From Bacteroidaceae bacterium (GTDB lineage: Bacteria; Bacteroidota; Bacteroidia; Bacteroidales; Bacteroidaceae), in assembly GCA_017383485.1 (NCBI GenBank), contig JAFNXM010000011.1:1-51859 (forward strand): 51,859 nucleotides of DNA. Reading direction: 5' to 3'. The position numbers and the translations under genes are program-made. Of this stretch, positions 889 to 46,893 are shown in pieces. Every line of letters starts with the position of its first letter. The stretch's first letter is position 1. The notes under the pieces are model-generated. The model worked only from the letters and a program-made list of their open reading frames with translations, searched no databases and was not told the DNA's origin.

Positions 889-967
889 CCTGACCTTTTT
901 TTCACGAGGCGTCGCGAAATTTCAACGAGGCGTCGCGAAATTTTAACGGGGCGTCGCGAAGTTTTTT
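889..967 (+). repeat. Family-1 intergenic element, copy A (three tandem 21-bp units)
   Basis: Three direct copies of the core CGAGGCGTCGCGAAA (the third reads CGGGGCGTCGCGAAG) begin at 905, 926 and 947, a period of exactly 21 bp. The left flank CCTGACCTTTTTTT resembles one inverted arm of other family members, but no matching right arm is evident, so this copy looks like an expanded tandem core with degraded arms. It lies downstream of the minus-strand lptD/lipoprotein genes. Confidence 0.85.
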
Positions 968-1067
968 GTATGCTTTTTTGAATGTAGTTTTGGGGTGAAT
1001 GTTGGGGTGATGGGTCGGATGTCTGTGAGTGATGTGTTAGGGATGGTGGCGACGTGGTGATACAATT

Positions 1068-1105
1068 CGCCCCACCGGCTTTGTGAGATGTTGCGGGTGG
1101 GGCGT
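1068..1105 (-). terminator. GC-rich hairpin downstream of the BACON lipoprotein gene
   Basis: A perfect 9-bp stem (CGCCCCACC at 1068-1076, GGTGGGGCG at 1097-1105) lies about 50 bases beyond the lipoprotein stop on the minus strand. No clear T tract follows, so termination is possible but not shown. Confidence 0.4.
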
Positions 1106-1154
1106 ATGTTGAAAACTGGGTGCCCTGGATGTTGGGCGGTATTTGATATGTGCC

Positions 1155-1853
1155 TTAGATCTTTTTCTTGCCTTCTTGCTTCACGTAGATGATGGTGGTG
1201 ACACCTTCTGAAGTGAGCGAGAGTTGTGCCTCGCGTGCGGTGGACAGTTCGTTGGGCTTGATATTAAGTATTGCCATGTTTGTACCGCTCATGAATGTTT
1301 CGATCTGAGGTTTGATCCACTCAGCATTTGAGGTGAGAGTCGCGCTCTTACCATAGGTGCTGAAGTGAATAGCATGCGATTGTGTGTTGTATAGCAAATC
1401 TAATTCAAATCTGGCTTTGAGACTATTGAAACTGCCGTTGGCATCCGTATTGGTGTATTTGGGTTGTGGGGAAATGATGTTCAACCATGCAGCCTGATAG
1501 ATGGGTGTAGAGATGCTCAGGTACGAGTTGATGCTGATGCGGCCAGAGCGATTTTGTCCAGTCGTATTTGGCGTAGTGCTGATGCCGATACGTGTGATGC
1601 CATAACTGCCTGCTGGTATCTCTTGGCTATTGGGTGATGCCTCGAACCATTCACCCTCTTTGGTCATAGTCCATGAGTCGTAAGAAACCAGTGTGGTTGT
1701 GTCTGTCGTTTGGTCGGCATAGAAGACGATGCCCTCGGGGCGTTGTGGGTAGAAGTAGATTTCGTGATATTCATTCTCGCCGTTGAGACACGATGTCATT
1801 GTTGCTGTGATCAATGCCAGGCAAAGTGAGATTTTTGTGAAAGTTGATTTCAT
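1155..1853 (-). CDS. BACON-like domain lipoprotein (232 aa)
   Basis: The N-terminus (MKSTFTKISLCLALITATMTSC) is a lipoprotein signal peptide with a lipobox ending at Cys22, so the protein is probably anchored in the outer membrane or periplasm. The rest is beta-rich. It contains two stretches resembling BACON-type Ig-like folds: one around residues 80-125 (GITRIGISTTPNTTGQNRSG, then IYQAAWLNI) and one near 170-230 (SNAEWIKPQ, then EAQLSLTSEGVTTIIYVKQEG). The closing VKQEG is typical of BACON repeats. BACON domains usually occur in Bacteroidetes surface proteins and may bind carbohydrate. The gene starts 57 bases after the lptD stop on the same strand, so it may share its transcript. The specific role is unknown. 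Confidence 0.7.
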   Translation of the reverse strand: MKSTFTKISLCLALITATMTSCLNGENEYHEIYFYPQRPEGIVFYADQTTDTTTLVSYDSWTMTKEGEWFEASPNSQEIPAGSYGITRIGISTTPNTTGQNRSGRISINSYLSISTPIYQAAWLNIISPQPKYTNTDANGSFNSLKARFELDLLYNTQSHAIHFSTYGKSATLTSNAEWIKPQIETFMSGTNMAILNIKPNELSTAREAQLSLTSEGVTTIIYVKQEGKKKI

Positions 1854-1910
1854 CTTTGTAGAGTTGTTTCTTAAATGTTAGTACTATATAATATATATAT
1901 GTATGGTGGA

Positions 1911-4661
1911 TTAGTACCACTCAATGTTGCTGCTGTACGAACTGCGCTTCTTCCATTTCAAGACGTCGGCCAATTCGCTTGACTTCGCACGGAAGGTGAA
2001 ATTGTAGGAGACGTAGGGGCGCAGAACGACGTTGCACGACATCTCGAAGCAGTGCAAGTCGCGAGAGAGCGAGGCTGTGGTCATCGAGAGTTGCTTCATC
2101 TTGAAATCATATCCCGACGAGAAGGTGATATTCCAACCATCTGCGATGCGTACGTAACCCGAAAAGTTGAGTGTCTGTGTGAAAGAGTAGGGATAGCGCA
2201 TACGTCGTACGTTGATATCCTTAGCCTTGTCTTCAAACATCGTGATACCGTAGGATACAGTCAAGGACCAGGGGAGTGAGAAGGTGAGGTATCCATCCTC
2301 GTCGACCTTGGCTTTTTGCTTTTTCTTCACACTTTGTTGCGATGCTTTCAGGTCTGGGTCGATATTTGCATCTTCTGCGTCAAGGTCCTCCTCGTCTGTT
2401 GTGGCTTTGCTCTCGCCCAGAGTGCTCTTTCTGCCCTTCAATTTGTCCATCCACTTTTGCCATGTCTGATTGTTGAAGGTGTATGACAGGTTCTGAGACA
2501 TTCCGCCGAAGCGGCCAAAGCGTCCGTAGCTCCACTCGGTGCGATCGCTTCGGATGACCTGACCTCGTTGGTTGAAGGCGTAGGCGTATGTAGCGAATAC
2601 GGCGGCCAGCGAGAAGGTGTAGTTCTTGGTCAACTTCAGACGAATACGTGTGGACAAGTCGCTCCAGGGTTGTGTCTTTGCGGCAAAGTTGTATGAAAGG
2701 CTTCCGCTTAATTCGTCAATCAAACTAATCTTTCGCACACCGGTGGTGTCGCGGTCGCTTTTCACCTTCATCTCAAGATTGTTCGAGAGCGACATTGATA
2801 GCATCCCCTGTTGCTTGCCCGTAGGATAACCATACAGCGCGCCTTGATAGGGCGAATATTGTACAGTCGTGACATTACCATATTGGTCAGTACGTACGTA
2901 GCTGTCCTGATAGCCATAGCGCTCGGCGGTAAAGTCCGGCGCATACGACAGAGATATCGAGGGCTTCATCACGTGGCGAATCATCTGTATCTTATCCCCA
3001 AAGAGTTTGCGCCAAGGCTTATAGAAACCGTAGAGCGTAGTATTGGCCGAGATGCCCACATTCCATTCGTAGAGGTTGTAGAAACCGTAAGTCGTGTCTA
3101 CACGTTCCACCATTTCTTCTTCATCCCACGACTTTTTCACACGACTCGTATACATGATGTCGCGGAAATTGAAGTTGGGCGTAATATTAATGTATTTGAA
3201 CAGCTGAAAACTTGCATCAATAGGAATGCGGTGCTGCATACCATTGCGCCAATCTTTGATAAAGTTTGATTTGAACAGTTGGTTTTCCTTCGTCGTGATA
3301 CTATTTGACAATTGTCCAGTATACGACATCGAAATCTTCTCGTACCAGCGCTCCTTGCCGGCTTGCTTTTTGCGGCGGAAGGGGTAGAATCTGTTCAGAG
3401 ATATAGATACGTCGGGCAGGGTCACCGAAAGCGAAGAATCTCGCATATTCTGTGTGATATTGGTCGAAGCGGAGATGTTCAGACCAATAGAGGGGAAGGT
3501 GTGAGATAAACTGATCGAACTGGCGCGTGTACTCTGTGTGTAGGAAAGTGGATTGTACATACTCTCCAGGTTCTTGCGCTCATAATTTTCCGAAGCAAAG
3601 TTGACGCGAGCAGAGAAGGAAGTATTGCCACCAGCCCGAGTGTCTTTTGAGTGCGACCATTGCACTTTCAAACTCTTGGTTACTGAGTAGTCGGGCATAT
3701 TCTTTTCGCCCTCGACGGTACGGATAAAGCTGGCGTAGAAGTTACCATTATATTTGTAGCGCTTGCGGTAATTCATTTCTCCGCTTACCCCCCACGAACC
3801 TTTGGTGTAGATTTCCCCCAGGGCTTTGAAGTCCAGATAATCATTGATAGCAAAATAATATCCCCCGTCGCGAGCATAAAATCCGCGTAGGGTTTCGTCA
3901 CCAAACGAGGGGACAATGATACCGCTGGAGTATTTCTTTGTCATTGGGATGAAGCCGTATGGCACGGCCAAGGGGAGTGGTACGTCCGCGACCACGAGAT
4001 AAGCGGGGCCGAAGTAGGATTCTTTGCCAGGGATCACCTTTCCGCGTGTCAAGTGTACGTAGAAGTGAGGATGTTCGGCGTCGCAGGTGGTGTATTTGCC
4101 ATCTTTGAAATAGAGGGTGCCATCGTCTCCGCGTTTAGCTTCGTTGCTTTTCAAGAAGCCGTTGCCTTGTGCTGTCGACACGTTGGTGATATATCCTTTC
4201 TGGGTCTTGAAGTTGAAGGACATCTTCTCGCTTTTATACTCCTCAGAACCTTGTCTGAAGATGGGCGTTTCCAATAGCACATTCTTGACGGTGTCGCGAT
4301 AGCCCTCGGCGTGCACCATGCTGCTGTCCATACTCATCGACAATTTTGCAGCATCTATTTTCATCCCCTGGTAGTTCACGTTGGCTTGGCCGAATAGGTA
4401 GGCAAAGTTGGTACCTGCTTCATACACCAACGAGTCGTTTGCCGTATATTCTACGGGTGAATCGATGCCTGCCTTACGACGTCGTACGCTGTCGGTTTGG
4501 GCTGAGTCTGTCGAAAGGCTGTCGTTGGCGCTGTATAATAAGGCTCCGCCCTGCATACCCCTTGGTGCGGAGTGTGCAGACAAAACTACTGCTGAAAGCA
4601 TTAGGGCTACCAGCAATATAGGGAGTGCCAGGATATTTCCTTTCAAATCAGTTTTCCTCAC
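1911..4661 (-). CDS. lptD: LPS-assembly outer-membrane protein LptD (Bacteroidetes type, 916 aa)
   Basis: This is the predicted outer-membrane translocon that inserts lipopolysaccharide into the outer leaflet. A hydrophobic signal segment (about residues 9-31) is followed by an OstA/LptD-N periplasmic beta-jellyroll region (about 65-220; SLVYEAGTNFAYLFGQANVNYQGMKIDAAKL is typical, shown here only as key residues YLFGQANVNYQG). A long C-terminal region (about 240-916) of alternating aromatic and polar strands ends in WY and fits the beta-barrel. A charged insert near 735-790 (DEEDLDAEDANIDPDLKASQ) is probably a loop. The length agrees with Bacteroidetes LptD_2 proteins of about 900 residues. 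The partner lptE lies at 42585-43115. Large frames on the opposite strand are shadows. Confidence 0.88.
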   Translation of the reverse strand: MRKTDLKGNILALPILLVALMLSAVVLSAHSAPRGMQGGALLYSANDSLSTDSAQTDSVRRRKAGIDSPVEYTANDSLVYEAGTNFAYLFGQANVNYQGMKIDAAKLSMSMDSSMVHAEGYRDTVKNVLLETPIFRQGSEEYKSEKMSFNFKTQKGYITNVSTAQGNGFLKSNEAKRGDDGTLYFKDGKYTTCDAEHPHFYVHLTRGKVIPGKESYFGPAYLVVADVPLPLAVPYGFIPMTKKYSSGIIVPSFGDETLRGFYARDGGYYFAINDYLDFKALGEIYTKGSWGVSGEMNYRKRYKYNGNFYASFIRTVEGEKNMPDYSVTKSLKVQWSHSKDTRAGGNTSFSARVNFASENYERKNLESMYNPLSYTQSTRASSISLSHTFPSIGLNISASTNITQNMRDSSLSVTLPDVSISLNRFYPFRRKKQAGKERWYEKISMSYTGQLSNSITTKENQLFKSNFIKDWRNGMQHRIPIDASFQLFKYINITPNFNFRDIMYTSRVKKSWDEEEMVERVDTTYGFYNLYEWNVGISANTTLYGFYKPWRKLFGDKIQMIRHVMKPSISLSYAPDFTAERYGYQDSYVRTDQYGNVTTVQYSPYQGALYGYPTGKQQGMLSMSLSNNLEMKVKSDRDTTGVRKISLIDELSGSLSYNFAAKTQPWSDLSTRIRLKLTKNYTFSLAAVFATYAYAFNQRGQVIRSDRTEWSYGRFGRFGGMSQNLSYTFNNQTWQKWMDKLKGRKSTLGESKATTDEEDLDAEDANIDPDLKASQQSVKKKQKAKVDEDGYLTFSLPWSLTVSYGITMFEDKAKDINVRRMRYPYSFTQTLNFSGYVRIADGWNITFSSGYDFKMKQLSMTTASLSRDLHCFEMSCNVVLRPYVSYNFTFRAKSSELADVLKWKKRSSYSSNIEWY

Positions 4662-4673
4662 TTATTTACACGA

Positions 4674-4708: not shown

Positions 4709-4777
4709 CATAAAAATATTGATTTCTTTTGCTCTTTAAGGTATTTTAGTAGGTTTCGTAGGCATTCAGGCACGTTA

Positions 4778-6439: not shown

Positions 6440-6795
6440 TGTCAAAATTTTTCGCATTTTTTTGAGGGCGAGAATCGCGTATTTTCATTCACACGGCCCC
6501 CTGGTCGCAAATATCGCCGCTACGAGGCATCAGAAAACAGGTTTTTTGATGGGAAAATGAGCAAAACCTATGATTTCTGTGGGCTTTCGATGAAAAATAG
6601 GGGAGAGGAGGCGGTGAAAAGGAGGGGGCAAATAGACAAAAAAAGTAAGACCTCGTGAAAACTTCGCGACGTCTCGTGAAAATTATCCAAGACTTTTTTT
6701 CAACAGGGTCTTACTTTTTTCAAATGATGTCATTGGTTGTCGCCACGCCCCGTCCTATTTCGACAAGTTGCTTTGTCAAAATTTTTCGCATTTTT
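6440..6795 (+). repeat. Composite 355-bp unit, copy 1
   Basis: The unit is bounded by two direct copies of a 23-bp sequence beginning TTGTCAAAATTTTTCGCATT (6440-6462 and 6773-6795). After the left copy come a GAGG..GAnAATCGCGTA motif, then CGCCGCTACGAGGCATCAGAAAAC (6511-6540 region), a TTTTTTGATGGG stretch, and a family-1 element at 6638-6720. A second copy with the same order and spacing lies at 46540-46893. The unit fills the gap between tRNA-Arg and the 3' end of the acyltransferase gene. Short frames inside it differ between copies, so I consider it non-coding. Confidence 0.75.
6638..6720 (-). repeat. Family-1 intergenic element, copy B
   Basis: Inverted arms (left AAAAAAAGTAAGACC, 6638-6652; right GGTCTTACTTTTTT, 6707-6720) pair over 14 bp. 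Between them is a minus-strand core GAGACGTCGCGAAGTTTTC plus a partial second unit. The arm centre AGTAAGACC differs from that of other copies (AGTCAAGACC), and the opposite arm carries the matching change. Confidence 0.8.
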
Positions 6796-11552: not shown

Positions 11553-12590
11553 TTATATGAGTGGTATATTCATCGCCGTGCATTGCGCTCGCATCTCGGT
11601 CGGCCAGATGCTGGATTGGATCTCGCCAATGTGTGCTTTCTTCAGGTATAGCATGCACAGGCGGGACTGTCCGATGCCGCCGCCCACACTCAGTGGCAGG
11701 GTGCCGTCGAGCAATCTGCTGTGGAAGTAGAGCTGGGCACGATCCTCCTGACCTGACAATTTCAGTTGGTGTAGCAGTGCTGCCTGGTCCACACGTATAC
11801 CCATGGACGAGAGTTCTACGGCACGATCCAGCACGTCGTACCACACCAGCAAGTCGCCATTGAGTCCAGCCAGTCCGTCTTCGCCCACAGTGGAGTAGTC
11901 GTCGTAGTCGGGTGCTCTGAGGTCATGGGGCACACCATCTGCCAGCGCACCGCCTATACCTATTATAAATACGGCACCCTTTTCTTTTGTGATTTTGTCC
12001 TCACGCTCTTTGGGGCTGAGTGTGGGATAAAGTCTGCGCAGCTCCTCGGCATGAATAAATGTGACCCGTTCTGGCAACGAGGGGGTCAGACAGGGGAAAC
12101 GTTCGCAAATGAGAAACTCTGTGCGAAGCATAGCTGCGTAAATGCACTCTACGATTTCCTTCAGAAAACCGATGTTTCTGTCTTCAGAACGAATGACGCG
12201 CTCCCAATCCCATTGGTCTACGTAAAGCGAATGCAGGTTGCCCAACTCCTCGTCCGCCCGGATGGCGTTCATATCCGTATAGATGCCATAGCCAGGCTTT
12301 ACTTCATACTCAGCCAAAGTGAGTCGTTTCCATTTTGCCAACGAGTGCACCACCTCGGCCGTCGCATTTTCCATATCTTTGATTGGGAAAGAGACTGGAC
12401 GTTCTCTGCCACTCAAATCATCATTAAGCCCCAGGCCGCGCTGCACAAACAGCGGACCGGTGACACGGCGCAGGCGCAAACCTGTCGATAGGTTTTCCTG
12501 AAAGAAATCTTTGATCAGCTTGATGCCCTGTTCTGTCTCATTGCCGCCAAGCAGAGGTGTATAATTTTTAGGGGTTATCAGATAACTCAT
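11553..12590 (-). CDS. asnA: Aspartate-ammonia ligase (asparagine synthetase A)
   Basis: AsnA makes asparagine from aspartate, ammonia and ATP in the cytoplasm, and is structurally a class II aminoacyl-tRNA synthetase relative. With the start at MSYLITPKNYTPLL (12590) the protein is 345 residues, the normal Bacteroidetes length. The open frame extends 28 residues further upstream, but that region lacks family similarity and is best read as 5' UTR. Key motifs are RVTGPLFV, GLNDDLSGRERPVSF, YGIYTDMNAIRADEEL, DQWDWERVI and near the end SVGGGIGQSRLCMLYLKK. The gene is preceded by a -7 promoter box at 12672-12679 and followed by a hairpin. Confidence 0.93.
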   Translation of the reverse strand: MSYLITPKNYTPLLGGNETEQGIKLIKDFFQENLSTGLRLRRVTGPLFVQRGLGLNDDLSGRERPVSFPIKDMENATAEVVHSLAKWKRLTLAEYEVKPGYGIYTDMNAIRADEELGNLHSLYVDQWDWERVIRSEDRNIGFLKEIVECIYAAMLRTEFLICERFPCLTPSLPERVTFIHAEELRRLYPTLSPKEREDKITKEKGAVFIIGIGGALADGVPHDLRAPDYDDYSTVGEDGLAGLNGDLLVWYDVLDRAVELSSMGIRVDQAALLHQLKLSGQEDRAQLYFHSRLLDGTLPLSVGGGIGQSRLCMLYLKKAHIGEIQSSIWPTEMRAQCTAMNIPLI

Positions 12591-12671
12591 AGTTCCTATT
12601 TTTTGAACAATAGCAAGTTGTGGATATTGCTGCAGTGCACCGAAAAGTTTGGCGCCTGCATCCTGCTGACG

Positions 12672-12679
12672 CAAAATTA
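12672..12679 (-). promoter_or_regulatory. -7 box upstream of asnA
   Basis: Minus-strand TAATTTTG matches TAnnTTTG, 81 bases before the chosen asnA start. Its position supports starting translation at 12590 and treating the upstream 28 codons as leader. Confidence 0.4.
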
Positions 12680-12830
12680 AGCAAAAATGGCAAATCGGCT
12701 CCTTTTATTCCCCTTTATTTTATTATAGGTATACCGCTGGTGTGCTCTTGTTTCCCGTATAAATGAATAAATCGCCACACCATGGCAAACAAAAATACGT
12801 ATGGCGGACCTCGGTGCTACGAAAAAAATG

Positions 12831-12838
12831 TATCTTTG
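12831..12838 (+). promoter_or_regulatory. -7 box upstream of the amidase-like gene
   Basis: TATCTTTG matches TAnnTTTG. If used, it gives a leader of about 200 bases that contains family-1 element C (12941-13020). The -33 box is not clear. Confidence 0.4.
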
Positions 12839-12940
12839 CAAGGAATATGCTGTTTGTACAGTCAGGCCTGTTTTCGTCGAAGGAAAGTCTCTCGAATTAC
12901 TTCTTGAAAAAGGTCTAAAAACTATACCTCAAAATGTCTC

Positions 12941-13020
12941 AGAAAAAAAGTCTAACCTTTTTTAAAAAAGGTCTAGTTTTTTTTTAACGAGGCGTCGCGA
13001 AATTTTAACGAGGCCTAGGT
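12941..13020 (+). repeat. Family-1 intergenic element, copy C
   Basis: Two A/T-bounded arms lie directly next to each other (AAAAAAAGTCTAACCTTTTTT from 12943, then AAAAAAGGTCTAGTTTTTTTTT to 12985), forming an imperfect hairpin. They are followed outside the hairpin by one full 21-bp unit (CGAGGCGTCGCGAAA) and a partial one that turns into CGAGGCCTAGG. Unlike most copies it lies between divergent genes, in the probable leader of the amidase-like gene. The remainder of the asnA to amidase gap (12591-13051) holds promoter boxes and nothing else I can identify. Confidence 0.8.
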
Positions 13021-13066
13021 TTGTGAAAACAGCCTAAAACGTGTTTTGAAAATGTCAAGTAATTTT

Positions 13067-16003
13067 ATGAAATATCGCTTGCTCCTGTTGCTCCTGATTA
13101 TGACTACTGCATTGCCCATCGTGGCACAGAAAAATAAATTCAAGGGGGTGTGCGACACGCTAAACATATATCTGAATACATACCGTGTGCCCAATTATCG
13201 TCCGCACTTCCCGATGAAACTGGACAGCATCTCGCTGAGCGCAGATTCGACCACGCTACGACTCTATGCCAACGAGGCAATCACGGGGCAGGCCTTTACG
13301 GAAAATAGCCTAAGGGCTTTTACCCCAAAAGTTGAGCAACTATTGCCAGATTCGCTGAAAATGTTTGCCCCACGTTGGCTGGACAAATATGGACGTGACC
13401 TGAGCGAATATATCCCCAACTATGCACGTACGGTGGCCCTGGACAGCACACGCATGCTGCCCGCTTCGCGATACGAAGGTGCACCCTGGGTGCGTCGCGT
13501 GGGACCACAGAGCGAAATATTAAGGGGGGGAGTCAATGGACGTCATATCATGGTGAATGCCAGTCACGGCAGATATTTTGATACCAAGAAGTGGTTGTGG
13601 CAACGTCCCTATCTCTTTTGCACAACCGAGGACCTGCTGACGCGAAGTTTCGTTTATCCCTACCTCGTTCCTATGTTGGAGCGATCGGGTGCTGTGGTGC
13701 CCACGGCATGCGAACGTGATATGCAAGCGGAAATGCGTGTGGTGGACAATGACAAGGCCCACTCGTCACAGCATCATGGCAAATACACAGAAGTCGGAGC
13801 GGGCGAGCACCAATGGCAAACCTGTGCAACAGGGGCTAAGGGCTTCGCTATGCCATACCTGCCTATGCAGGGAAAATCTAACCCCTTCGTAGCAGGAACT
13901 TACAGAAAAATCACCGCGACAAAGCAGGGGGATATAGCTTCAGCAACATGGACCCCCCGATTCAAGGTGAGCGGCACGTATGCCGTCTATGTGAGTTACG
14001 CCAGTCTGGCCCAGAGCGTGAGTGATGCTCACTATATCGTACGCCACAAGGGACAGGAGACACACTTCTTGGTCAATCAGAAAATGGGTGGAGGTACGTG
14101 GCTCTATCTTGGCACCTTCGATTTTGAAAAAGACAAACCCGAGGACAATTGTGTAGTCCTGACCAACGAAAGTCAGGAGCAAGGCATAGTGACCGCCGAT
14201 GCCGTGAGATGGGGCGGCGGTATGGCGATGCACAATCGTAATGGCTGGGGTACGAGTGGTATGCCGCGATATCTGGAAGCTGCTACATATAATGCTTTGT
14301 GGAGTGGTGTGCCCTACGACCTTTTTAATATGAAAAAGAAACATACGGACTATAGCGACGATATCCGAGCACGTGGCGCTATGGCCAATCATCTGGCGGG
14401 TGGCAGTACGTATTTGCCCGACTCGGCAGGATTGCGTGTGCCATTGGATGCAGTGGTGGCGGTACACTCAGACGCAGGGGCGAAAGATGCCAAGACCATC
14501 ATCGGCACATTGGGTATTGCTACGACGGTGAAACCTGGTGGAGTAGCAGATTTCCCCTGTGGAATGTCTCGAAAGACTTCGCTCGACCTCGCGACATCGG
14601 TCGTTACATCAATTTCGCAGAACCTGTCAAAACAATGGCATACGGATTGGACACAGCGCGAGGTGTGGGATCGCAACTATGGTGAGTGTCGTACGCCTCA
14701 TGTGCCGTCAATGATTCTCGAAATGTTCTCACACCAAAATTATACAGACTTCACCTTGGTGCACGATCCTATGTTCAAGGCTTCAATGGCACGTGCAATT
14801 TATGCAGGGATACAGAGATATGTCAGTACTCAATATGGCGAAATAGATTATACTATTCAACCCCTGAGCATCCGTCGCTTTGCGGCTCGGCTGTCAGACG
14901 ACCAACGCACTGCATGCCTGTCGTGGCAGCCGACAATAGACACCTTGTATCACAATGCCACACCGACGGGATACATCGTCTATACTCGTATCAATGATGG
15001 CGACTTCGACAATGGCGTATACGTCGCAGAACGGACAACATACGAATTGCCCATCGAAGCAGGCAAACGCTACGATTTCAAAGTCAACGCTATCAATGCA
15101 GGAGGCGAGAGTGCGGACTCGGAAATCCTGTCGGTATATGCGGCAGAAGGCGCAACGAAAAAAATACTCTTGGTCAACGGCTTCTACAGACTAAGCGGGC
15201 CAGCAAGAGTAGAGACTTCAACCCAATTTGGCTTTGACTTAGATCAAGACTTCGGCGTGCCTGACAAATATACCGCTGCTTTCGCTGGCCGACAACTGTG
15301 CTTCGATCGCTCAAAGTTCGGCAGAGAGAAAGAAGGTGCTTTGGGATTTTGCGGCAACGAACTGGAGGGGAAAATCATCGGCGGCAATACCTTCGACTAT
15401 CCCACTCGTCACGGCTCAGCTATAGCCGCGCTCAACGTTTATTCCTACGAGTCGGCCTCACGTGAAGCATGGTTGGGCGGAGATATGGATTTGTCGCAAA
15501 TTGCCGCCATAGATTATATTGCAGGTGCCGAATGCGATGCACCTCAAAACCTCTTGCCCTTCAAAACCTTTGATGCTGAGACACGCCGTGCTTTGACCTC
15601 ATACCTCAACGACGGCGGCGCTTTGCTAGTGAGCGGATGTTATCTTGGTAGCGACGCTAAGACGACGGAAGAGAAAGCCTTCTTGCGCGAAACCCTGAAG
15701 TGCGAATTTGCAGGTACGGCTCGCTGTGACTCCACCGAGATGGTCTGCGGCTTAGGTCTTGAAATTCCCGTACACCGCGGCATCATATCCGAATGTTATC
15801 CCATTCAGTCGCCAGATATTCTGATCCCGACGGATTCTCTCGCATTCCCCGCTTTTGCATATTACGGCGGTGGCAGCGCAGGCGTGGCTTATGCTGGTGC
15901 AGACTACCGATTGGTGGCAATGGGTTTTCCCTTCGAAAGCATTAAGGACAAGAAAATTCAAATACAAGCCATCGAAGCAATATTAAGGTTCTTGACAGAG
16001 TAA
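13067..16003 (+). CDS. Secreted N-acetylmuramoyl-L-alanine amidase/xanthan-lyase-like protein (978 aa)
   Basis: The start chosen is MKYRLLLLLLIMTTALPIVAQ, a clean signal peptide. ATG at 13052 and TTG at 13046 are alternatives five and seven codons upstream. The region around residues 155-185 (GRHIMVNASHGRYFD) and VVAVHSDAG (about 463-471) resemble the zinc-binding blocks of amidase_3 peptidoglycan amidases, separated by an inserted beta domain like the golvesin/xanthan-lyase carbohydrate-binding module (about 300-385, GTYAVYVSYASL to TADAVRWGGG). A fibronectin-III-like stretch follows (about 600-695), then a large unassigned C-terminal domain. Similar Bacteroidetes proteins are called xanthan lyase or amidase. 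Activity is not proven, but a cell-wall role is plausible. Confidence 0.72.
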   Translation: MKYRLLLLLLIMTTALPIVAQKNKFKGVCDTLNIYLNTYRVPNYRPHFPMKLDSISLSADSTTLRLYANEAITGQAFTENSLRAFTPKVEQLLPDSLKMFAPRWLDKYGRDLSEYIPNYARTVALDSTRMLPASRYEGAPWVRRVGPQSEILRGGVNGRHIMVNASHGRYFDTKKWLWQRPYLFCTTEDLLTRSFVYPYLVPMLERSGAVVPTACERDMQAEMRVVDNDKAHSSQHHGKYTEVGAGEHQWQTCATGAKGFAMPYLPMQGKSNPFVAGTYRKITATKQGDIASATWTPRFKVSGTYAVYVSYASLAQSVSDAHYIVRHKGQETHFLVNQKMGGGTWLYLGTFDFEKDKPEDNCVVLTNESQEQGIVTADAVRWGGGMAMHNRNGWGTSGMPRYLEAATYNALWSGVPYDLFNMKKKHTDYSDDIRARGAMANHLAGGSTYLPDSAGLRVPLDAVVAVHSDAGAKDAKTIIGTLGIATTVKPGGVADFPCGMSRKTSLDLATSVVTSISQNLSKQWHTDWTQREVWDRNYGECRTPHVPSMILEMFSHQNYTDFTLVHDPMFKASMARAIYAGIQRYVSTQYGEIDYTIQPLSIRRFAARLSDDQRTACLSWQPTIDTLYHNATPTGYIVYTRINDGDFDNGVYVAERTTYELPIEAGKRYDFKVNAINAGGESADSEILSVYAAEGATKKILLVNGFYRLSGPARVETSTQFGFDLDQDFGVPDKYTAAFAGRQLCFDRSKFGREKEGALGFCGNELEGKIIGGNTFDYPTRHGSAIAALNVYSYESASREAWLGGDMDLSQIAAIDYIAGAECDAPQNLLPFKTFDAETRRALTSYLNDGGALLVSGCYLGSDAKTTEEKAFLRETLKCEFAGTARCDSTEMVCGLGLEIPVHRGIISECYPIQSPDILIPTDSLAFPAFAYYGGGSAGVAYAGADYRLVAMGFPFESIKDKKIQIQAIEAILRFLTE

Positions 16004-16027
16004 GTTCCTTTGAGCCTCTCTTCCCCA

Positions 16028-16047
16028 TGTATATAATATTATATATG
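16028..16047. repeat. AT-rich perfect palindrome
   Basis: TATATAATATTATATA (16030-16045) is self-complementary and lies in the short gap after the amidase-like gene. A near copy lies at 11544-11559 across the asnA stop, with related tracts near 1880 and 32585. Confidence 0.5.
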
Positions 16048-16077
16048 TAATAACGCTAACTTAAAAAAACTTCAAAT

Positions 16078-16410
16078 ATGGAATATACAATACAACTCAA
16101 CGAAAGCGGCACACATCACCTCGAACTCAGCGAGATTCACCTCGAAACACTTCGCCGTTACCAATTGTTGGACCATCTCTTGGATAGCACAGGCTATGTG
16201 ACCGAAGATACACTCGATCGTTTGAAGATGCAAATCCGCGCCTTGATAGCATCGTCTACAGAGAATACCAAAGATTTGCTGGACCTGTGCATCGACGTCA
16301 TATATCACCACAAGATGAAAGCCTATGGCTTGCGCGAGCTCATTGCCGTATATCAGGAATATTTAGCAAAGACACAGGAGCCAGGCACCGAAACTGTCGA
16401 CGCACAATAA
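16078..16410 (+). CDS. Conserved-looking protein of unknown function (110 aa)
   Basis: A soluble, mostly helical protein without signal peptide or cysteines. It opens with a short beta-like segment (MEYTIQLNESGTHHLEL) and continues with amphipathic helices (LETLRRYQLLDHLL, DTLDRLKMQIRALI, LLDLCIDVIYHHKM, LRELIAVYQEYL). The gene lies 74 bases after the amidase-like gene and 66 bases before the YgiQ gene, all on the plus strand, so co-transcription is possible. I do not recognise the family. Confidence 0.65.
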   Translation: MEYTIQLNESGTHHLELSEIHLETLRRYQLLDHLLDSTGYVTEDTLDRLKMQIRALIASSTENTKDLLDLCIDVIYHHKMKAYGLRELIAVYQEYLAKTQEPGTETVDAQ

Positions 16411-18467: not shown

Positions 18468-18576
18468 AAAAAAAACCTAAGCCTTTTTTGAAAAAAACGT
18501 TCTGGAATTTAAAAAAGGTTTAGGCTTTTTTTAACGAGGCGTCGCGAAATTTTAACGAGGCGTCGCGAAATTTTTT
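18468..18576 (+). repeat. Family-1 intergenic element, copy D
   Basis: Inverted arms (left AAAACCTAAGCCTTTTTT up to 18489; right AAAAAAGGTTTAGGCTTTTT from 18511) pair with one G-T and one mismatch. They are followed outside by two direct 21-bp units with the core CGAGGCGTCGCGAAA (18535-18570). The element lies between the convergent YgiQ and M48 genes. A further A/T hairpin (TTTTTTGCAT/ATGCAAAAAA, 18420-18449) lies beside it. Confidence 0.85.
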
Positions 18577-23586: not shown

Positions 23587-23604
23587 CTTGAAAGAAACTG
23601 CTGG

Positions 23605-23689
23605 AAAAAAGTCAAGACCTTTTTTTAACGAGCCGTCGCGAAATTTTAACGAGGCGTCGCGAAATTTAAAAAAGGTCTTGACTTTTTTT
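23605..23689 (+). repeat. Family-1 intergenic element, copy E
   Basis: Perfect inverted arms of at least 20 bp (AAAAAAGTCAAGACCTTTTT at the left, AAAAAGGTCTTGACTTTTTT at the right, 23668-23689) enclose two direct 21-bp units, the first with core CGAGCCGTCGCGAAA and the second CGAGGCGTCGCGAAA. It lies between the sulfatase terminator and the histidine kinase stop. It is identical, in reverse orientation, to copy F at 31268-31353 except for the length of the outer A/T runs. Confidence 0.92.
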
Positions 23690-28046: not shown

Positions 28047-30434
28047 ATGGAAATCATTAGAAATCTATGGTACATGTTTCGCCGATTCAAATTGGCGACG
28101 GCCCTGAACTTTTTGGGGTTGACGATAGCGTTTGCGGCGTTCTATATCTTCATGACGCAGGTGGATTACAATCTCAGTTACAACCGCGGCATAAAAGACT
28201 ATGAACGTATCTATCGTCTTGAGATGAGTTCGTTTCAAACGGACTTCGAAACGTTCGACATGTATTGCTCGCGCCCTATTGCAGAGCACATCGAGGGGTT
28301 GCCGCAGGTAGAGACGGTAAGTTGCTATCAAGCCTACCCTCAAGGATGGGGCGCCAAAAAGAATGGCGTGGACATCATGTTGAGCTTTACAGTAGGGAGC
28401 AAGAAGGCGCTGTCTGCCTTTTCGCCAAAATGCCTTGATGGAAAATTGGAATGGACAGACAAGGAACAGAATGGTGTACTGATTCCTGCATCTATGGCTA
28501 AGATGTATTTCGACGAAGTGCAGGTGGCAGGAAAGTATTTCTTCGACGGCGAGGACAGTGTGCTGGTGCGTGGCGTCTACGAGGATTTTCCAGAAAACAC
28601 GACAATACGTAATATCATGTACTCCTATTGGTATGACCAGAATGCCAATAATCCGAACAATCAGAACTACGTCTGCTTTGTCAAACTGCGCCCTGATGCT
28701 AATGTCAGCGAGGTGGAGAAACTGATCGTCGAAGCCGAATACAAACTGTACAAGGAACGCATGGCACAGTATGAGACTTCAGCAGAAAACCTGGCGAAGA
28801 TGGATGAAATCTTCTCTAAGCGCAAGGCACGACTGCACGCTATCGGCGAAACCTATTTCTCGGGCGTTGATAGCGAATTTGACAAGGGCAATAAGGGAAT
28901 GCTGTTGATACTGGAACTGGCTTGCTTGTTGATTATCGTCGTAGCCGGCATCAATTTCCTGAACTTCACGTTGGCCGAGAGTCCCATGCGCATTCGTGGC
29001 ATCAATACGCGCCGTGTGCTGGGTAAGGGTCTCGCGGTACTGAGGGCTGAGCTGGTAGCCGAAGCCGTGCTGGTCTCTCTGCTGGCCTTTGCCGCAGGCA
29101 TGGGCATCGTCTATCTGCTGTCGCTGTATCCCGCTGCGATGTCGCTGGTCCAAGGCGATATCTCGCTTCATCAGCATTGGTGGCTGCTGGGTCTGACTGG
29201 CGGTGTAAGTCTGCTGGTCGGCATCAGTGCTGGTCTTTATCCCGCTCTCTATGCTACTTCGTTCGCGCCAGCATTGGTACTCAAGGGTTCGTTTGGTCTT
29301 TCGCCAAAGGGCAAACAATTGCGTATGGTGCTCGTGGCTCTGCAATTGGCGGTGTCTTGCTTCGTGGTGTTCTATCTGGGTGTGCTCTATTTGCAGAGTA
29401 GCTACATCTACAATTCTGACTATGGCTTTGACAAGGATCAAGTCTACTATGCGCGGTTGGACCATCAGCGCCTGGAGAAATTTGACGAGGTGGTGGCGCG
29501 TGTCAAGGCTGTGTCGGGCGTAGAGCGTGTGTCGCGTTCGAACTTTGTGCTGGGGACGTCGGACGGTTATATGTCGTGGGCACGAAGTGATGCCGACCAC
29601 CAGATCTATGCCAACGTGTTGCCTGTGGACGAGGAATATCTGCGCACAATAGGCATCGAGGTGGTGGCGGGGCGCGACTTCACGGCACACGATGGCGACG
29701 TGTATATCATAAACGAGGCTGCCCGAAAGAAATGGCCCTGGGTCGAAGTGGGCCAGCCCCTGCTGGACGAGGAATTTCCCGTGCTGGGGGTGTGCGAGAA
29801 TGTGCGATTTGGCACCGTGCGCCAGGACAATGCTGACATGCCTTTGATATTCGTCCTCTTTGGCGAACGATTCAAAGCCGGTGGTTGGGGACTGGGTAAT
29901 GTGATAAACATCCGCGTCTCGGCAGGTGTGGACAAAGTGAAAGTGCGCAGGATGCTGGAGGAAGCCATCAACAGCACAGAGGGCATGGGGCACGTGGATG
30001 TGACATTCCTGGACAGAGAGTTGGAAAATACCTACCAAGAGGAGTTCCGCTTCGTATCACAAGTGATCATCTTCTCTGCCATCTGTCTGCTCATCACACT
30101 GATCGGCGTATTTTGTCTGACGATGTTTGAAACGGAATATCGCCGCAAGGAAATCGGCATACGCAAGATTATGGGCGCCAGTGCGTGTGGTATATTGGGC
30201 ATGCTTTGTCGGAAATACAGCGTCTTGATCATTATTGCCCTGGCCGTGTCTATCCCTGCGGCATGGTACGCGGGCGAGGGATGGCTCGAGAACTTTGCCG
30301 AACGCACTGCGATACCCTGGTGGCTGCCCCTCGTATCGCTCGGCATAGTAAGCGGCATCACGCTGCTGACCGTGATCGTGCAGGCATGGAAGACTGCAAA
30401 TGACAATCCTATAAATAGTATAAAGACGGAGTAA
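28047..30434 (+). CDS. ABC transporter permease, FtsX/MacB type with two repeats (795 aa)
   Basis: The protein has the duplicated MacB_PCD-FtsX layout of Bacteroidetes. An N-terminal helix (FKLATALNFLGLTIAFAAFYIFM, about 14-36) precedes a large periplasmic domain, three helices (about 280-395, including LLIILELACLLIIVVAGINFLNF), another helix near 425-445, a second periplasmic domain and three C-terminal helices (about 675-785). IGIRKIMGASACGILGML is the conserved FtsX signature. It uses mechanical transmission rather than a classic substrate pore, and typically exports peptides, lipids or antimicrobials. The ATPase is the next gene. The substrate is unknown. Confidence 0.9.
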   Translation: MEIIRNLWYMFRRFKLATALNFLGLTIAFAAFYIFMTQVDYNLSYNRGIKDYERIYRLEMSSFQTDFETFDMYCSRPIAEHIEGLPQVETVSCYQAYPQGWGAKKNGVDIMLSFTVGSKKALSAFSPKCLDGKLEWTDKEQNGVLIPASMAKMYFDEVQVAGKYFFDGEDSVLVRGVYEDFPENTTIRNIMYSYWYDQNANNPNNQNYVCFVKLRPDANVSEVEKLIVEAEYKLYKERMAQYETSAENLAKMDEIFSKRKARLHAIGETYFSGVDSEFDKGNKGMLLILELACLLIIVVAGINFLNFTLAESPMRIRGINTRRVLGKGLAVLRAELVAEAVLVSLLAFAAGMGIVYLLSLYPAAMSLVQGDISLHQHWWLLGLTGGVSLLVGISAGLYPALYATSFAPALVLKGSFGLSPKGKQLRMVLVALQLAVSCFVVFYLGVLYLQSSYIYNSDYGFDKDQVYYARLDHQRLEKFDEVVARVKAVSGVERVSRSNFVLGTSDGYMSWARSDADHQIYANVLPVDEEYLRTIGIEVVAGRDFTAHDGDVYIINEAARKKWPWVEVGQPLLDEEFPVLGVCENVRFGTVRQDNADMPLIFVLFGERFKAGGWGLGNVINIRVSAGVDKVKVRRMLEEAINSTEGMGHVDVTFLDRELENTYQEEFRFVSQVIIFSAICLLITLIGVFCLTMFETEYRRKEIGIRKIMGASACGILGMLCRKYSVLIIIALAVSIPAAWYAGEGWLENFAERTAIPWWLPLVSLGIVSGITLLTVIVQAWKTANDNPINSIKTE

Positions 30435-31267: not shown

Positions 31268-31353
31268 AAAAAAGTCAAGACCTTTTTTAAATTTCGCGAC
31301 GCCTCGTTAAAATTTCGCGACGGCTCGTTAAAAAAAGGTCTTGACTTTTTTTT
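31268..31353 (-). repeat. Family-1 intergenic element, copy F
   Basis: The reverse complement of this element equals copy E (23605-23689) base for base across about 83 bp, including the unequal first and second units (CGAGCCGTCG then CGAGGCGTCG). Arms AAAAAAGTCAAGACCTTTTT (left) and AAAAAGGTCTTGACTTTTTT (right) pair perfectly. It lies between the convergent ABC ATPase and thiN genes. Confidence 0.92.
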
Positions 31354-32585: not shown

Positions 32586-32702
32586 AGGCTATATATAATA
32601 TTGCATCTTGACGCTGTGGCAGACTATCGGAGTCGTGAAACAGGCAGTCAAGGGGTGCTGAAATAAAATGTGAATATATAGAAAGGCTGTCGGATGGTGG
32701 CA

Positions 32703-32776
32703 ATCCCTACGGCAGCATGATCTGCTTCAGGTCTGAGGGTCTTATCTCAGCCCATTCCAAATGGAAGGACACCCCT
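32703..32776 (-). promoter_or_regulatory. TPP riboswitch (THI element) controlling pnuT-thiN
   Basis: Read on the minus strand, the conserved blocks occur in order: GGGGTGTCC, then GGCTGAGATAAGACCC (TPP CTGAGA box), then ACCTGAAGCAGATCATGCTG, and finally GCCGTAGGGA. These are the hallmarks of the TPP aptamer. It lies about 118 bases before the pnuT ATG. I cannot identify the expression platform with certainty. Translational control or an A/T-rich antiterminator are both possible. Confidence 0.93.
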
Positions 32777-32790
32777 TTGCCTTTTCGCCA

Positions 32791-38129: not shown

Positions 38130-38206
38130 CTGTATACTTGCCCAGAGATAGGGTGGCAAAAGTCCCCAAAATACAAATCCAGATTTTGCAGAAAAAATGG
38201 TCATAG

Positions 38207-38293
38207 AAAAAAGGTCTGACCTTTTTTAAACGAGCCGTCGCGAAATTTGAAAAAGGTTTAGGCTTTTTTCAACGAGCCGTCGCGATTTTTTTT
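38207..38293 (+). repeat. Family-1 intergenic element, copy G
   Basis: The left arm AAAAAAGGTCTGACCTTTTT (from 38207) is itself nearly palindromic. It is followed by one 21-bp unit (CGAGCCGTCGCGAAA), a second arm-like block (AAAAAGGTTTAGGCTTTTTT, 38250-38269) and a second unit (CGAGCCGTCGCGA). Units and arms therefore alternate here. The element lies between two independent terminators of convergent genes. Confidence 0.85.
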
Positions 38294-41761: not shown

Positions 41762-41766
41762 GATTT

Positions 41767-44355: not shown

Positions 44356-44429
44356 TTGTGATAAGTCGCTATTTCGTAGCAAAGTTACGCTTTTTTTATA
44401 ATATGTGTGGAATTTTTGCGCCGATTTTC

Positions 44430-44870
44430 TTACAAGTCCTCTTCTTCGTCGTCATCAAAGGGGAAATAGAAATCGTTGTCCAGTGAGATTGGCACCTGAA
44501 AGTCTTCGATAACTCGGCGGTCCTTTTTTGTGGGACGACCGGTGCCTTTTGCACGATCGATGAATCCACTGATGCGGCTCAATTCCAGGATTTCATATTG
44601 TTCGGGGCTTGTGATGTTCTCCAGAATGTCAGGCAGAAGTTTTGCTCCGACACGTTTTTCGATGGCTTGCTTCACCAGGAATGTGTAGGTGATAGGCGGT
44701 TTTCGTACACCCACCTTGTCGCCCACCTTTACGCTACGGGATGCTTTCACGTTGGCGCCGTTGATGCTGATGCGTCCGTTCTTGCAGGCGTCGGCAGCCA
44801 GGGTGCGTGTTTTGTAGATGCGTGCTGCCCACAGCCATTTGTCTATTCGTGCTTCCCCTGGATTGCTCAT
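44430..44870 (-). CDS. S4-domain RNA-binding protein, HslR/Hsp15 family (146 aa)
   Basis: An S4 domain (about residues 7-70: [39 protein letters not shown], key: [25 protein letters not shown]) binds structured RNA. In E. coli the homologue Hsp15 recognises stalled 50S subunits with peptidyl-tRNA. A long C-terminal half includes [16 protein letters not shown], common in this family, and an acidic tail. Its start overlaps the pth stop by four bases (ATGA), so pth, the other peptidyl-tRNA rescue gene, is coupled to it. This fits a shared role in ribosome rescue. Confidence 0.88.
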
Positions 44871-45493
44871 TTTTTATTGAAGTGATTCATGGTAAACTGT
44901 ATGCCGCTGAGTGCAAAACTTTTGATCATCTCTGCAGCCACCTCGAGTCGTTCGGGCATAGCAGACATGTCTTCTGCCGAGAATTTGCCAAGGACAAAAT
45001 CCACCTGTCCGCCGCGTGGGAAGTCGTTGCCGATACCAAAGCGCAAACGGGCGTATTGCTGTGTGCCCAGGGTCTGGGTGATGTGGCGCAAACCGTTGTG
45101 TCCAGCTTCGCTGCCGCCGGGTTTCATGCGCAGCGCGCCGAAGGGTAGGGCGAGGTCGTCTACTACGACCAGCACGCGCTCCAGGTCCACCTTCTTTTCC
45201 TTCATCCAATACCTCACGGCATTGCCCGACAGATTCATATATGTTGATGGTTTCAGCAGGATGAGGTTTTGATTTTTTACCTTCATTTCTGCTACAAAAC
45301 CATAGCGTTTGTCCTGGAAAGTCACACCAGCGGTTTCTGCCATCGCATCAAGCACGGTGAAGCCGATGTTGTGTCTTGTCCCTGCGTATTCGCTGCCTAT
45401 ATTGCCCAGGCCTACTATCAGGTGATTCATATCGTTGGCGTCTGTATTTTGTGGTTTGGAAAAGATTTGTAATAGTTTGTCGAGAAAGTTCAT
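44867..45493 (-). CDS. pth: Peptidyl-tRNA hydrolase
   Basis: Pth cleaves peptidyl-tRNA released from ribosomes. Conserved blocks are [21 protein letters not shown] (with catalytic His in TRHN), [30 protein letters not shown] (catalytic Asp) and [15 protein letters not shown]. Three starts are possible: 45538 (unsupported extension), 45493 ([11 protein letters not shown], 208 residues, chosen) and 45430 (MNHLIVG, 187 residues, closest to the usual family length). I favour 45493 only weakly. It is followed by hslR with a four-base overlap. Confidence 0.93.
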
Positions 45494-45507
45494 CTTGACG
45501 TATTTAG

Positions 45508-45573
45508 ATAAAAAGAGAAAGAATGGAAGGTCGAGCACTCATTGGGAAGTGCCTTGGTCTCCCATTCTTTCTA
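45508..45573 (-). terminator. Terminator downstream of rplY
   Basis: AGAAAGAATGG on the left pairs with CCATTCTTTCT on the right (to 45572). On the minus strand it is followed by CTTTTTATC. It separates rplY from pth. Confidence 0.75.
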
Positions 45574-45594
45574 TATACTGTATGCTAAATGCTA

Positions 45595-46197
45595 TTATTT
45601 ACCCTTTGCAGCAGCAGCCATAGCACCCATAGCAGCACGAGTCATCTTAACAGTAACTACGATTACTTCCTTTGGAGTAACGAGTTCGATACCTTCGTAA
45701 GAGAGGTCGCCTACCTTCAAAGACTTACCCAAACCGAGGCTAGTTACATCTACATCCAACTTTTCAGGGATTGCAGTGTAAGGTGCCTTAACGTTGATCT
45801 TGCGAACCATTGCCATCAACTTACCACCGGCACGTACACCTTCTGCGAGACCCTTAGGAGCGATGGGTACACCTACTACGATAGGACGATTTTCTACTAC
45901 TTCGTAGAAGTCTACGTGGAGCACGTTGTCCTTAACTGGGTGGCATTGTACTTCCTTAACGATAGCCTTGTGTTCTACGCCGTCGAGGTTGATGTTTACG
46001 AGGTAAACGTGAGGAGTGAAGTAGATCTTGTCGATTTCCTTAGCGCTAACTACGAAGTGAGTAGCTTCGGGCAAACCGTTAGCATCACGCTTTTCACCAT
46101 AAAGTACGCAAGGTACGAGACCGTTGTTGCGAACTTCCTTTGTTGCTTTCTTGCCAACTACTTGGCGAGCAGAACCATTGATTGAAAATTCTCTCAT
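45595..46197 (-). CDS. rplY: Ribosomal protein L25/Ctc family
   Basis: The protein binds 5S rRNA in the large ribosomal subunit. The N-terminal L25 domain (MREFSINGSARQVVGKKATKEVRNNGLVPCVLYG, key: GKKATKEVRNNGLVPCVLYG) is followed by the C-terminal beta domain found in Ctc/TL5-type proteins (about 100-190, VVGVPIAPKGLAEGVRAGGKL, EKLDVDVTSLGLGKSLKVGDL) and a short Ala-rich tail (AAMGAMAAAAKGK). At 200 residues it is the long Ctc form. A strong promoter with a hairpin in the leader precedes it. Confidence 0.96.
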   Translation of the reverse strand: MREFSINGSARQVVGKKATKEVRNNGLVPCVLYGEKRDANGLPEATHFVVSAKEIDKIYFTPHVYLVNINLDGVEHKAIVKEVQCHPVKDNVLHVDFYEVVENRPIVVGVPIAPKGLAEGVRAGGKLMAMVRKINVKAPYTAIPEKLDVDVTSLGLGKSLKVGDLSYEGIELVTPKEVIVVTVKMTRAAMGAMAAAAKGK

Positions 46198-46257
46198 TGT
46201 CTTTTTAAATTAAATGTGTTACTCTAAATTAAGTTTTATTGCTTAATTCGCCATCAC

Positions 46258-46282
46258 ACGTAGGTTTGTCTAAACCTCACGT
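46258..46282 (-). promoter_or_regulatory. Leader hairpin upstream of rplY
   Basis: ACGTAGGTTT (46258-46267) pairs with AAACCTCACGT (46272-46282; one bulged base) around GTCT. It begins about 8 bases after the predicted transcription start and lacks a T tract, so it is not a terminator. An L25 autoregulatory leader is possible. Confidence 0.45.
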
Positions 46283-46297
46283 CGGACAAATCGGGTG

Positions 46298-46328
46298 CAA
46301 AATTACATAATTTTTTTGAAACTGCAAA
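46298..46328 (-). promoter_or_regulatory. Promoter of rplY
   Basis: Minus-strand TTTG (46325-46328) and TAATTTTG (46298-46305) with a 19-base spacer match the Bacteroidetes -33/-7 consensus exactly. The leader is about 93 bases. Confidence 0.72.
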
Positions 46329-46539
46329 ATGCTGGTATTTCTTTTTGTGATTTGCGTATCTCGTGTGCTTTATTTTAAAATCAAATCTGTTGAATCGAAG
46401 GGGTGCTGCAGACTTTTCTGCTGTGTGTGGGGTGGGCAATCAGTCTGCCCCTGCACAATGGGGATATGGACGGGTGTGATGAAAAACGAAAGTGATGTTT
46501 ATGCCCACGCGGCAGATGTTGTTTGTGGCATCGCCTGTC

Positions 46540-46893
46540 TTGTCAAAATTTTTCGCATTTTTCGAGGCTGAAAATCGCGTAAAATTTATCAACGAATTCT
46601 TGTCCGAAAATAACGCCGCCACGAGGCTATAGAAAACCTATTTTTCGGGTCAAAAATATAGGGTTTGGGCGCAAAAAGCTATATTTTACCATAAAAAAAA
46701 GCTATTTTTTAAGAAACCAGGAGCGAATTTTTGAGTGAAAAAACCTAGGCTTTTTTAAAACGAGCCTAGGCCTTTTTCAAATTATCCTAGGGGGAATTTT
46801 CACAAAACCTTGACTTTTTTTGTTTATCCGCTTTCGCCTTCTTTTTTCGTTTCTATTTCATTAACTGCGCTTGTCAAAATTTTTCGCATTTTT
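46540..46893 (+). repeat. Composite 355-bp unit, copy 2
   Basis: Direct copies of TTGTCAAAATTTTTCGCATT plus TTT bound the unit at 46540-46562 and 46871-46893, a separation of 331 bases against 333 in copy 1. The left part carries the same ordered blocks (GAGGCTGAAAATCGCGTA; CGCCGCCACGAGGCTATAGA; CCTATTTTTCGGG). The right part holds degraded family-1 element H. It lies between rplY and the terminator of the large glycosidase-like gene. The rest of the 46198-47065 gap has only the rplY promoter, and I see no gene. Confidence 0.75.
46738..46821 (+). repeat. Family-1 intergenic element, copy H (degenerate)
   Basis: AAAAAACCTAGGCTTTTTT (46738-46756) faces GCCTAGGCCTTTTT (to 46777), with a relic of the 21-bp unit between (AAAACGAGCCTAGG). 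AAATTATCCTAGG (46779-46791; compare AAATTATCCAAG in copy B) and AAAACCTTGACTTTTTTT follow. The CCTAGG centre is shared with the end of copy C. Confidence 0.65.

Follow-up and report, generated by a model that had tools for sequence, protein, structure and literature searches.

The window analysed here comprises 51,859 nucleotides (positions 1 to 51,859 of contig JAFNXM010000011.1, assembly GCA_017383485.1, from a Bacteroidaceae bacterium) and contains eight arrays of short repeated units, here named A to H. An earlier note on this DNA had described them as a dispersed family of intergenic elements built from GC-rich units and inverted, A/T-bounded arms. The source genome of the window is called G000, and G001 is that of a closely related species of the genus with the same units. 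Scored with unit profiles, the arrays are composed as follows.

Array A, 880..963, plus strand: an arm-type unit followed by three GC units in a 21-bp register, four rows of 21 bp (119.2 bits).
Array B, 6639..6720, minus strand: arm, GC unit, arm, arm, with the outer arms inverted and complementary (71.4 bits; folded).
Array C, 12944..13025, plus strand: two arm units, a GC unit and a GC/arm hybrid, with a weak extra unit after them (112.4 bits).
Array D, 18468..18572, plus strand: an arm, a diverged in-register unit, an arm and two GC units (116.2 bits).
Array E, 23604..23687, plus strand: inverted arms (GTCAAGACC / GGTCTTGAC) flanking two GC units, exactly 84 bp (119.6 bits).
Array F, 31269..31352, minus strand: the plan of array E, with the inner two GC units inverted in G001 (119.0 bits).
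Array G, 38206..38289, plus strand: arm, GC unit, arm and GC unit in alternation (104.7 bits).
Array H, 46736..46819, plus strand: four units in register, one of them diverged and none with the GC core (46.9 bits).

Independent gene calls place all eight loci between genes, in agreement with the note. Its statement that they share a GC core is correct for seven of them, while locus H (46738-46821) has no core at three or fewer mismatches. All eight do form arrays of one family, with 71 to 120 bits for seven and 46.9 bits for H, which contains arm-type units only. The core CGAGGCGTCGCGAAA (up to three mismatches) has 16 matches in the window versus 1.13 expected, a number reached by 0/100 shuffles. 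The matches lie at the loci given in the note, apart from three stray ones with three mismatches at 900-914 (minus strand, inside locus A), 6738-6752 and 29714-29728. The core copies follow each other in the described steps of 21 bp within loci A, D, E and F and in a step of 42 bp within locus G, and the units are located inside the arms, outside them or in alternation with them, as had been reported. However, units and arms are not distinct parts. Written in rows of 21 bp, the arrays show unit types such as TTAACGAGGCGTCGCGAAATT, AAAAAAGGTCTTGACTTTTTT, AAAAAACATTAGACCTTTTTT and their relatives in a single register, and the arms and GC units are thus one kind of module, mostly an imperfect palindrome, in a 21-bp register that corresponds to two helical turns. 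Among 21 hand-picked example units (three from G000, the remainder from other genomes of the genus), 13 were more palindromic than 95% of letter shuffles, including all three from G000. The arrays in the window are separated by 5.8, 6.3, 5.5, 5.1, 7.7, 6.9 and 8.5 kb. At the gathering threshold, Rfam identified only a thiamine pyrophosphate (TPP) riboswitch, at 32687-32786 on the minus strand, and two tRNAs in the window, and the arrays match no curated family.

The family extends beyond the window, with 229 copies of AACGAGSCGTCGCGAAATTT (up to two mismatches) in the 1.68 Mb of G000 and none in the reversed control. All assemblies are fragmented, and G000 and G001 are 64% and 74% complete, respectively. 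Array scoring covered 581 kb of G000, namely the window and 27 stretches of four contigs, and identified 81 arrays with a score of at least 18 bits. Because the profiles derive from G000 itself, on 21-bp rows, and the scorer permits steps of 19-23 bp only, these counts are descriptive. In first-order Markov resamplings of 305 kb, no hit reached 10 bits and three reached 8 bits. The profile scorer placed 252 of the 285 steps between units in G000 at 21 bp and 22 at 19 bp, the latter because the frame moves by two when the next unit is read from the opposite strand. Four units (about 84 bp) were present in 46/81 arrays after edge units below 10 bits had been trimmed, and 11/81 contain no GC unit, including the only single-unit array. 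Most arrays in G000 have A-runs at their start and T-runs at their end. A simpler motif search yielded 71 clusters with 126 GC-unit matches, of which at least two clusters (L090, positions 11 and 14473) resemble chance matches in or beside coding sequence. In both G000 and G001, a scan for repetition at fixed lags, which uses no motif, shows peaks at lag 21 and at multiples of it.

Comparison of these two genomes, which are mostly 90-97% identical in stretches aligned over more than 400 bp, reveals fixed positions with changing content. The exact pattern CGAGSCGTCGCGAAAT is present in two of 58 genomes of the genus, G000 (147 matches) and G001 (26 matches); single matches in four records of other bacteria were taken as chance. 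G001 contains 71 arrays in 500 kb, 44 of them with four units. At orthologous sites with both flanks matched, an array is present on both sides in 16/16 comparisons from G000 to G001 and in 14/14 from G001 to G000, and no empty site was found among them. The number of units differs at 9/16 of these sites, and orientation and type change too. For example, G001 has an extra unit at L078:4264, and four versus two GC units are found at L087:2495, while array E is nearly identical in G001. In array F (window 31269-31352 and L099), the inner 42 bp with the two GC units are in opposite orientation between the arms in the two genomes, perhaps through a tiny invertible segment or a hairpin-template switch. 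About 900 bp of coding-like sequence beside an array in G001 (L098, around 15100-16200) is absent from the orthologous site in G000 (L079, around 18410).

The arrays in G000 are evenly spaced. The 76 gaps obtained from the 81 arrays have a mean of 6.84 kb and a coefficient of variation (CV) of 0.41, and two are shorter than 3 kb, a class expected to make up 35% of the gaps under uniform placement, 31% under random intergenic placement and 23% when intergenic regions are weighted by length. None of 2000 runs of each null model was as even, and neither was any of 5000 runs in which intergenic regions were sampled with the probability of their length class (22% below 3 kb); the intergenic nulls rest on our own simple gene predictions. 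Consistently, 26 of the 42 array-free intergenic regions of at least 300 bp are located within 3 kb of an array, compared to 3/57 of the array-bearing ones. The 40 gaps in G001, which are not independent of those in G000, have a mean of 6.57 kb, a CV of 0.29 and a minimum of 3.7 kb, and 0/40 are below 3 kb; the G001 stretches are at most 20 kb long, which hides long gaps but not short ones. Close neighbours are also missing in G015 and G017. For exact-match units on the contigs listed, 0/41 gaps in G015 (7.7 expected, P 5e-5) and 0/20 in G017 (3.2 expected, P 0.018) are below 5 kb, and since these genomes share a dialect and perhaps positions, the two results are perhaps not independent. In G016, one gap is below 3 kb (5.2 expected, P 0.017) and five are below 5 kb (8.3 expected, P 0.10). 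Unit number and neighbour distance show a weak negative correlation (rho -0.30, P 0.012). The even spacing calls for a second, long-range cause beyond the architecture of the units, and landmark selection, molecular drive on self-DNA tags, or transposition with target immunity could provide it. Contig C3 of G000 differs in that 4/7 gaps are 12.8-18.3 kb long, about two to three times the usual length, as if arrays were missing or too diverged for detection.

Other species of the genus carry arrays in a 21- or 22-bp register made of unrelated sequences, as seen in G015/G017, G016, G020 and others. The motif-free scan of 200 kb of G015 gave ten hits at lag 21, with none or one at any other lag between 16 and 27, and G016 gave eight at lag 21 versus none to two at the others. 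In 36 kb of G012 there was one hit at lag 21 and one to three at some other lags. Coding repeats and 7-bp repeats account for some of these lag-21 hits. The scan of one stretch from each of 20 genomes of the genus (326 kb) showed conspicuous counts at lags 21 (15 hits) and 22 (14 hits). Three runs of N add three to every lag, and without them 12 and 11 hits remain; among the 12 at lag 21, two derive from short-period repeats of G009 and one is coding-like. Most hits at lags 16 and 24 (seven and eight without N) come from coding-like sequence or from repeats of 7-8 bp in G009 and G045. No lag-21 signature was found in 174 kb from five genomes of other families in the order, which are small controls.

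Whole-genome counts show that three of the dialects, the G000/G001, G016 and G020 units, are species-bound. The sequence AAGTGTAGTCCC has 109 copies in G016 and at most one in each of 57 other genomes, while TCATGCGCATGA has 50 copies in G020, seven in G008 and at most two elsewhere. The unit TCCATCCCATGGA (up to one mismatch) was searched in G015 and G017, where it has 161 and 150 copies, respectively, and none in the reversed control. Among the G020 arrays listed, counted from exact cores only and with 34/50 copies listed, 9/12 are exactly four 22-bp positions long, none is longer, and the remaining three comprise two with three positions and a single unit. Outside G000, G001, G015, G016, G017 and G020, the dialect assignments rest on one to three arrays per genome. 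Examples of units across the genus are GTATCACGCCCTTGATAC in G008, TATCATGCGCATGATA in G020, CTTGGTTTATATAAACCAAAG in G047 and TTCGTCCGCGGACGAA in G046. In a comparison of array positions across dialects, only 18 adjacent gene pairs proved to be conserved between the G000 stretches and other genomes of the genus, and none of them carries an array in G000. Two elements in G016 (L148:15399 and L149:9917) are near-perfect palindromes of 57 bp with three units and terminal ACAAGT...ACTTGT or a close form. A possible palindromic array with a 24-bp period is located in G044 (L276:16460). The tandem repeats of 7-8 bp in G009 (L280, around 11900-13400) and G045 (L277, around 3360), such as AAATTAGA and AATTGACC, are a class apart from the 21-bp arrays.

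Mapped relative to genes, 77 of the 81 arrays in G000 are located between two called genes, where convergent gaps hold 18, co-directional gaps 43 and divergent gaps 16, and the other four could not be placed. Array occupancy grows with gap length in all classes, to 9/14 convergent, 20/28 co-directional and 14/19 divergent gaps at 450 bp or more. The GC units in co-directional gaps point along the genes in 16 cases and opposite to them in 20, with one mixed, and thus show no strand preference. In gaps of 110-450 bp, arrays are present in 9/19 convergent versus 2/16 divergent cases, and this convergent excess speaks for some link with gene ends. It would fit arrays that act as bidirectional intrinsic terminators, or stabilisers of mRNA 3' ends, assembled from modules of an A-tract, a stem and a T-tract, as would the A-runs and T-runs that open and close most arrays and the strong hairpins that several arrays form on both strands (array E: -34.8 and -35.8 kcal/mol). 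A survey of human microbiomes reports that 230/250 palindromic candidate RNAs, several of them found only in Bacteroidetes, are predicted terminators (PMC8040213). However, divergent gaps hold 16 of the 77 placed arrays, in 15 cases with both start codons more than 100 bp away, and one array of the G015 dialect (L144) has no T-runs. A terminator scan, which sees loops of 3-8 only and whose totals of 14, 20 and 13 sites were not above shuffles, calls none of the eight arrays in the window. RNA pairing was likewise set aside, as folding 46 four-unit arrays with swapped halves gave almost no signal: only 54% of the chimeras were weaker than the native arrays. These results weaken the structured RNA that the note had listed as one option and bear out its remark that the modular shuffling is unlike a simple terminator. 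Some arrays may have a terminator role, but this cannot be the common denominator of all of them, and we did not accept termination as the sole explanation; as a general account it is very improbable.

Taken together, the arrays suggest an undescribed set of species-specific chromosome landmarks; no description of them was found in the open-licence literature searched. Our best explanation, to which we assign a probability of about 40%, is that they are recognised by protein dimers along one DNA face and serve as landmarks throughout the chromosome. Each array would be a cluster of usually four sites with centres 21 (or 22) bp apart on one helix face, and neighbouring sites would be occupied by dimers of a sequence-specific DNA-binding protein, which together would form a compact nucleoprotein knob. 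The arrays would work over long range, as loop anchors, topological insulators or condensing points, and shifts in protein specificity between species would lead to the dialects. From such a role would follow even spacing, no tie to strand or gene orientation, and fixed positions with exchanged units. Put more broadly and just as tentatively, a genus of gut Bacteroidales may mark its chromosome near-regularly with dialect arrays of typically four palindromes two helical turns apart, read by a fast-evolving DNA-binding protein, as a chromosome-spacing or self-recognition code. The unit spacing, the preference for about four units and their often palindromic form would be imposed by a row of dimers on one face, and are not predicted by an RNA hairpin or by slippage. 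The sequences directly show the register, the preferred unit number, the palindromy (13/21), the intergenic placement, the spacing in G000 and G001, the positional conservation with turnover, and the dialects. A site for a nucleoid protein is the only one of the note's three options left standing, as a prediction from sequence.

Several observations count against landmarks bound by a dimeric protein. The protein, its occupancy of the arrays and their chromosome-scale role are all things that we infer. Eight of the 21 example units, the G015/G017 unit among them, are not significantly palindromic, and the number of units in G000 varies from three to nine besides the one single unit. The overall CV is ordinary in G015 (P 0.13) and G017 (P 0.08), and G016 is not evenly spaced, with a CV of 1.14 for 38 gaps versus a null value of 1.09 (one unit type on contigs C1-C5); ten gaps in 140 kb of this genome, located with more unit types, range from 2.3 to 35.7 kb. 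The mean gap depends on the species, from about 7 kb in G000 to about 20 kb in G015 (exact-match units). Finally, G004 of the same genus has no lag-21 array in 160 kb, and the system is therefore dispensable.

The explanation ranked second, which we consider doubtful, is that the arrays are self-DNA tags spread by molecular drive, with a system for import or recombination that favours array-bearing fragments and thereby leads to about one array per fragment, even spacing and dialects. To our knowledge, competence has not been described in this lineage. The uptake sequences of Pasteurellaceae (USS, uptake signal sequences) and Neisseriaceae (DUS, DNA uptake sequences) resemble the arrays in their species dialects, relatively even distribution and inverted pairs between genes. 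Both properties, an even spacing and dialects, have been reported for uptake sequences: a relatively even distribution of USS is expected under molecular drive (PMC7811141), and Neisseriaceae have DUS dialects, with inverted pairs in intergenic positions (PMC3630211). The units counted here across the genus do form species dialects, the arrays are intergenic and lack a strand preference, and their distribution is relatively even in G000 and G001, in G015 and G017 only in that close neighbours are missing, and not overall in G016. However, the same sources portray uptake sequences as single short motifs, often also inside genes, at about one per kb in H. influenzae (PMC7811141, PMC3630211), whereas the arrays consist mostly of four 21/22-bp units rather than a single motif of about 10-12 bp, extend over about 84-88 bp and, at about 84 bp and one per 7 kb in G000, are several times sparser. 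A ComEC/Rec2 protein (PF03772) is present in G001, G015, G016 and G017, but equally in the array-free G004, so ComEC was dropped as an uninformative indicator of self-tagging; it was not found in the incomplete G000.

Less probable still is an origin from non-autonomous mobile elements whose enzyme has target immunity and thus keeps a minimum distance between copies, which we infer would yield the hard-core spacing in G000. Some transposon ends carry several 22-bp transposase sites, and many of the G016 elements listed have recurrent terminal inverted repeats, ACAAGT...ACTTGT. Bacterial interspersed mosaic elements (BIMEs) are described as mosaic palindrome arrays in both orientations, which resemble those found here (PMC2817692). 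Like the repetitive extragenic palindromic (REP) sequences and BIMEs of Escherichia, Pseudomonas and Stenotrophomonas, the arrays are extragenic and species-specific, with more than 100 copies of imperfect palindromes in alternating mosaics (229 copies in G000; 77/81 arrays intergenic). They differ in the 21/22-bp register, the four-unit preference, the even spacing in G000 and G001, the lack of a flanking REP-associated tyrosine transposase (RAYT), and the lack of a foot tag across dialects. The foot of REP palindromes carries a GTAG or CGTC tag according to PMC3733652, while by inspection CGTC is placed in the middle of the GC unit in G000, GTAG is internal to the G016 unit, and TCCATCCCATGGA of G015/G017 contains neither. 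The RAYT-type family PF01797, in line with the note's suggestion to look for a RAYT, was searched and has no match in G001 or G016, one in G000 and one in G015 without an exact unit in the locus of about 3.3 kb, two in G012 and two in the array-free G004; the assemblies of G000 and G001 are incomplete, and a missing gene there proves little. Membership in a RAYT/REP system was rejected on these results. TniB was dropped as an unspecific sign of target immunity, as the PF05621 matches are weak, in long frames and also found in G004, and the model matches 13/14 control genomes. The whole-element presence and absence and the fixed ends of a miniature inverted-repeat transposable element (MITE) were not seen in G000, where 16/16 orthologous sites are occupied in both G000 and G001 and the outermost units differ from array to array. 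The MITE- or REP-like option of the note is thereby weakened. That no site was empty, and that array content changes while positions stay put, is in line with landmarks and self-DNA tags and less so with target immunity. A link to phages was rejected: an 18-mer of G000 has no match in viral contigs, and a 14-mer of G016 gave 62 stretches with a single match each, which was taken as chance. CRISPR (clustered regularly interspaced short palindromic repeats) was set aside, as no unique spacers were seen by inspection. Functionless tandem satellites that change by slippage and recombination would account for the length differences of one or two units and the 42-bp inversion between G000 and G001, and other simple tandem repeats do exist in the genus (G009, G045). 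They leave unexplained the four-unit preference, the 21/22-bp register across unrelated sequences and the even spacing, and are about as improbable as termination.

Among other known systems, the sites of parS, matS, Noc and SlmA resemble the arrays as dispersed palindromes read by dimeric proteins, but they are single sites whose sequence is conserved among species, and they are not known to recur evenly at intervals of a few kb. The ends of Tn7 and Mu and the iterons of plasmids likewise have several protein sites about 21-22 bp apart on one helical face; these are asymmetric, placed beside their own transposase or Rep gene, and not evenly dispersed as stand-alone arrays. The note had recognised no named family, and none of those compared here fits. 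Evenly spaced repeats on a bacterial chromosome indicate that some process gauges distances in the kilobase range, be it the folding of the chromosome, the transfer of DNA or transposition immunity. As organisers of the nucleoid, the arrays would provide natural landmarks at high density; as tags of self-DNA, they would represent a new type of signal for this purpose. Should they descend from a transposon that has target immunity, they would preserve a record of it that can be read. The predicted reader protein should be identifiable by its co-evolution with the dialect.

In the window, array C lies between divergent genes, about 40 bp upstream of where a gene with Amidase_3 and Golvesin domains starts (13067), and the terminator-like hairpin of the gene next to array H is a separate feature (47007-47038). 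An array within about 260 bp of the contig start is found on contigs C4, C8 and C17 of G020 and on contigs C11, C15, C28 and C84 of G001, which suggests that such arrays break assemblies.

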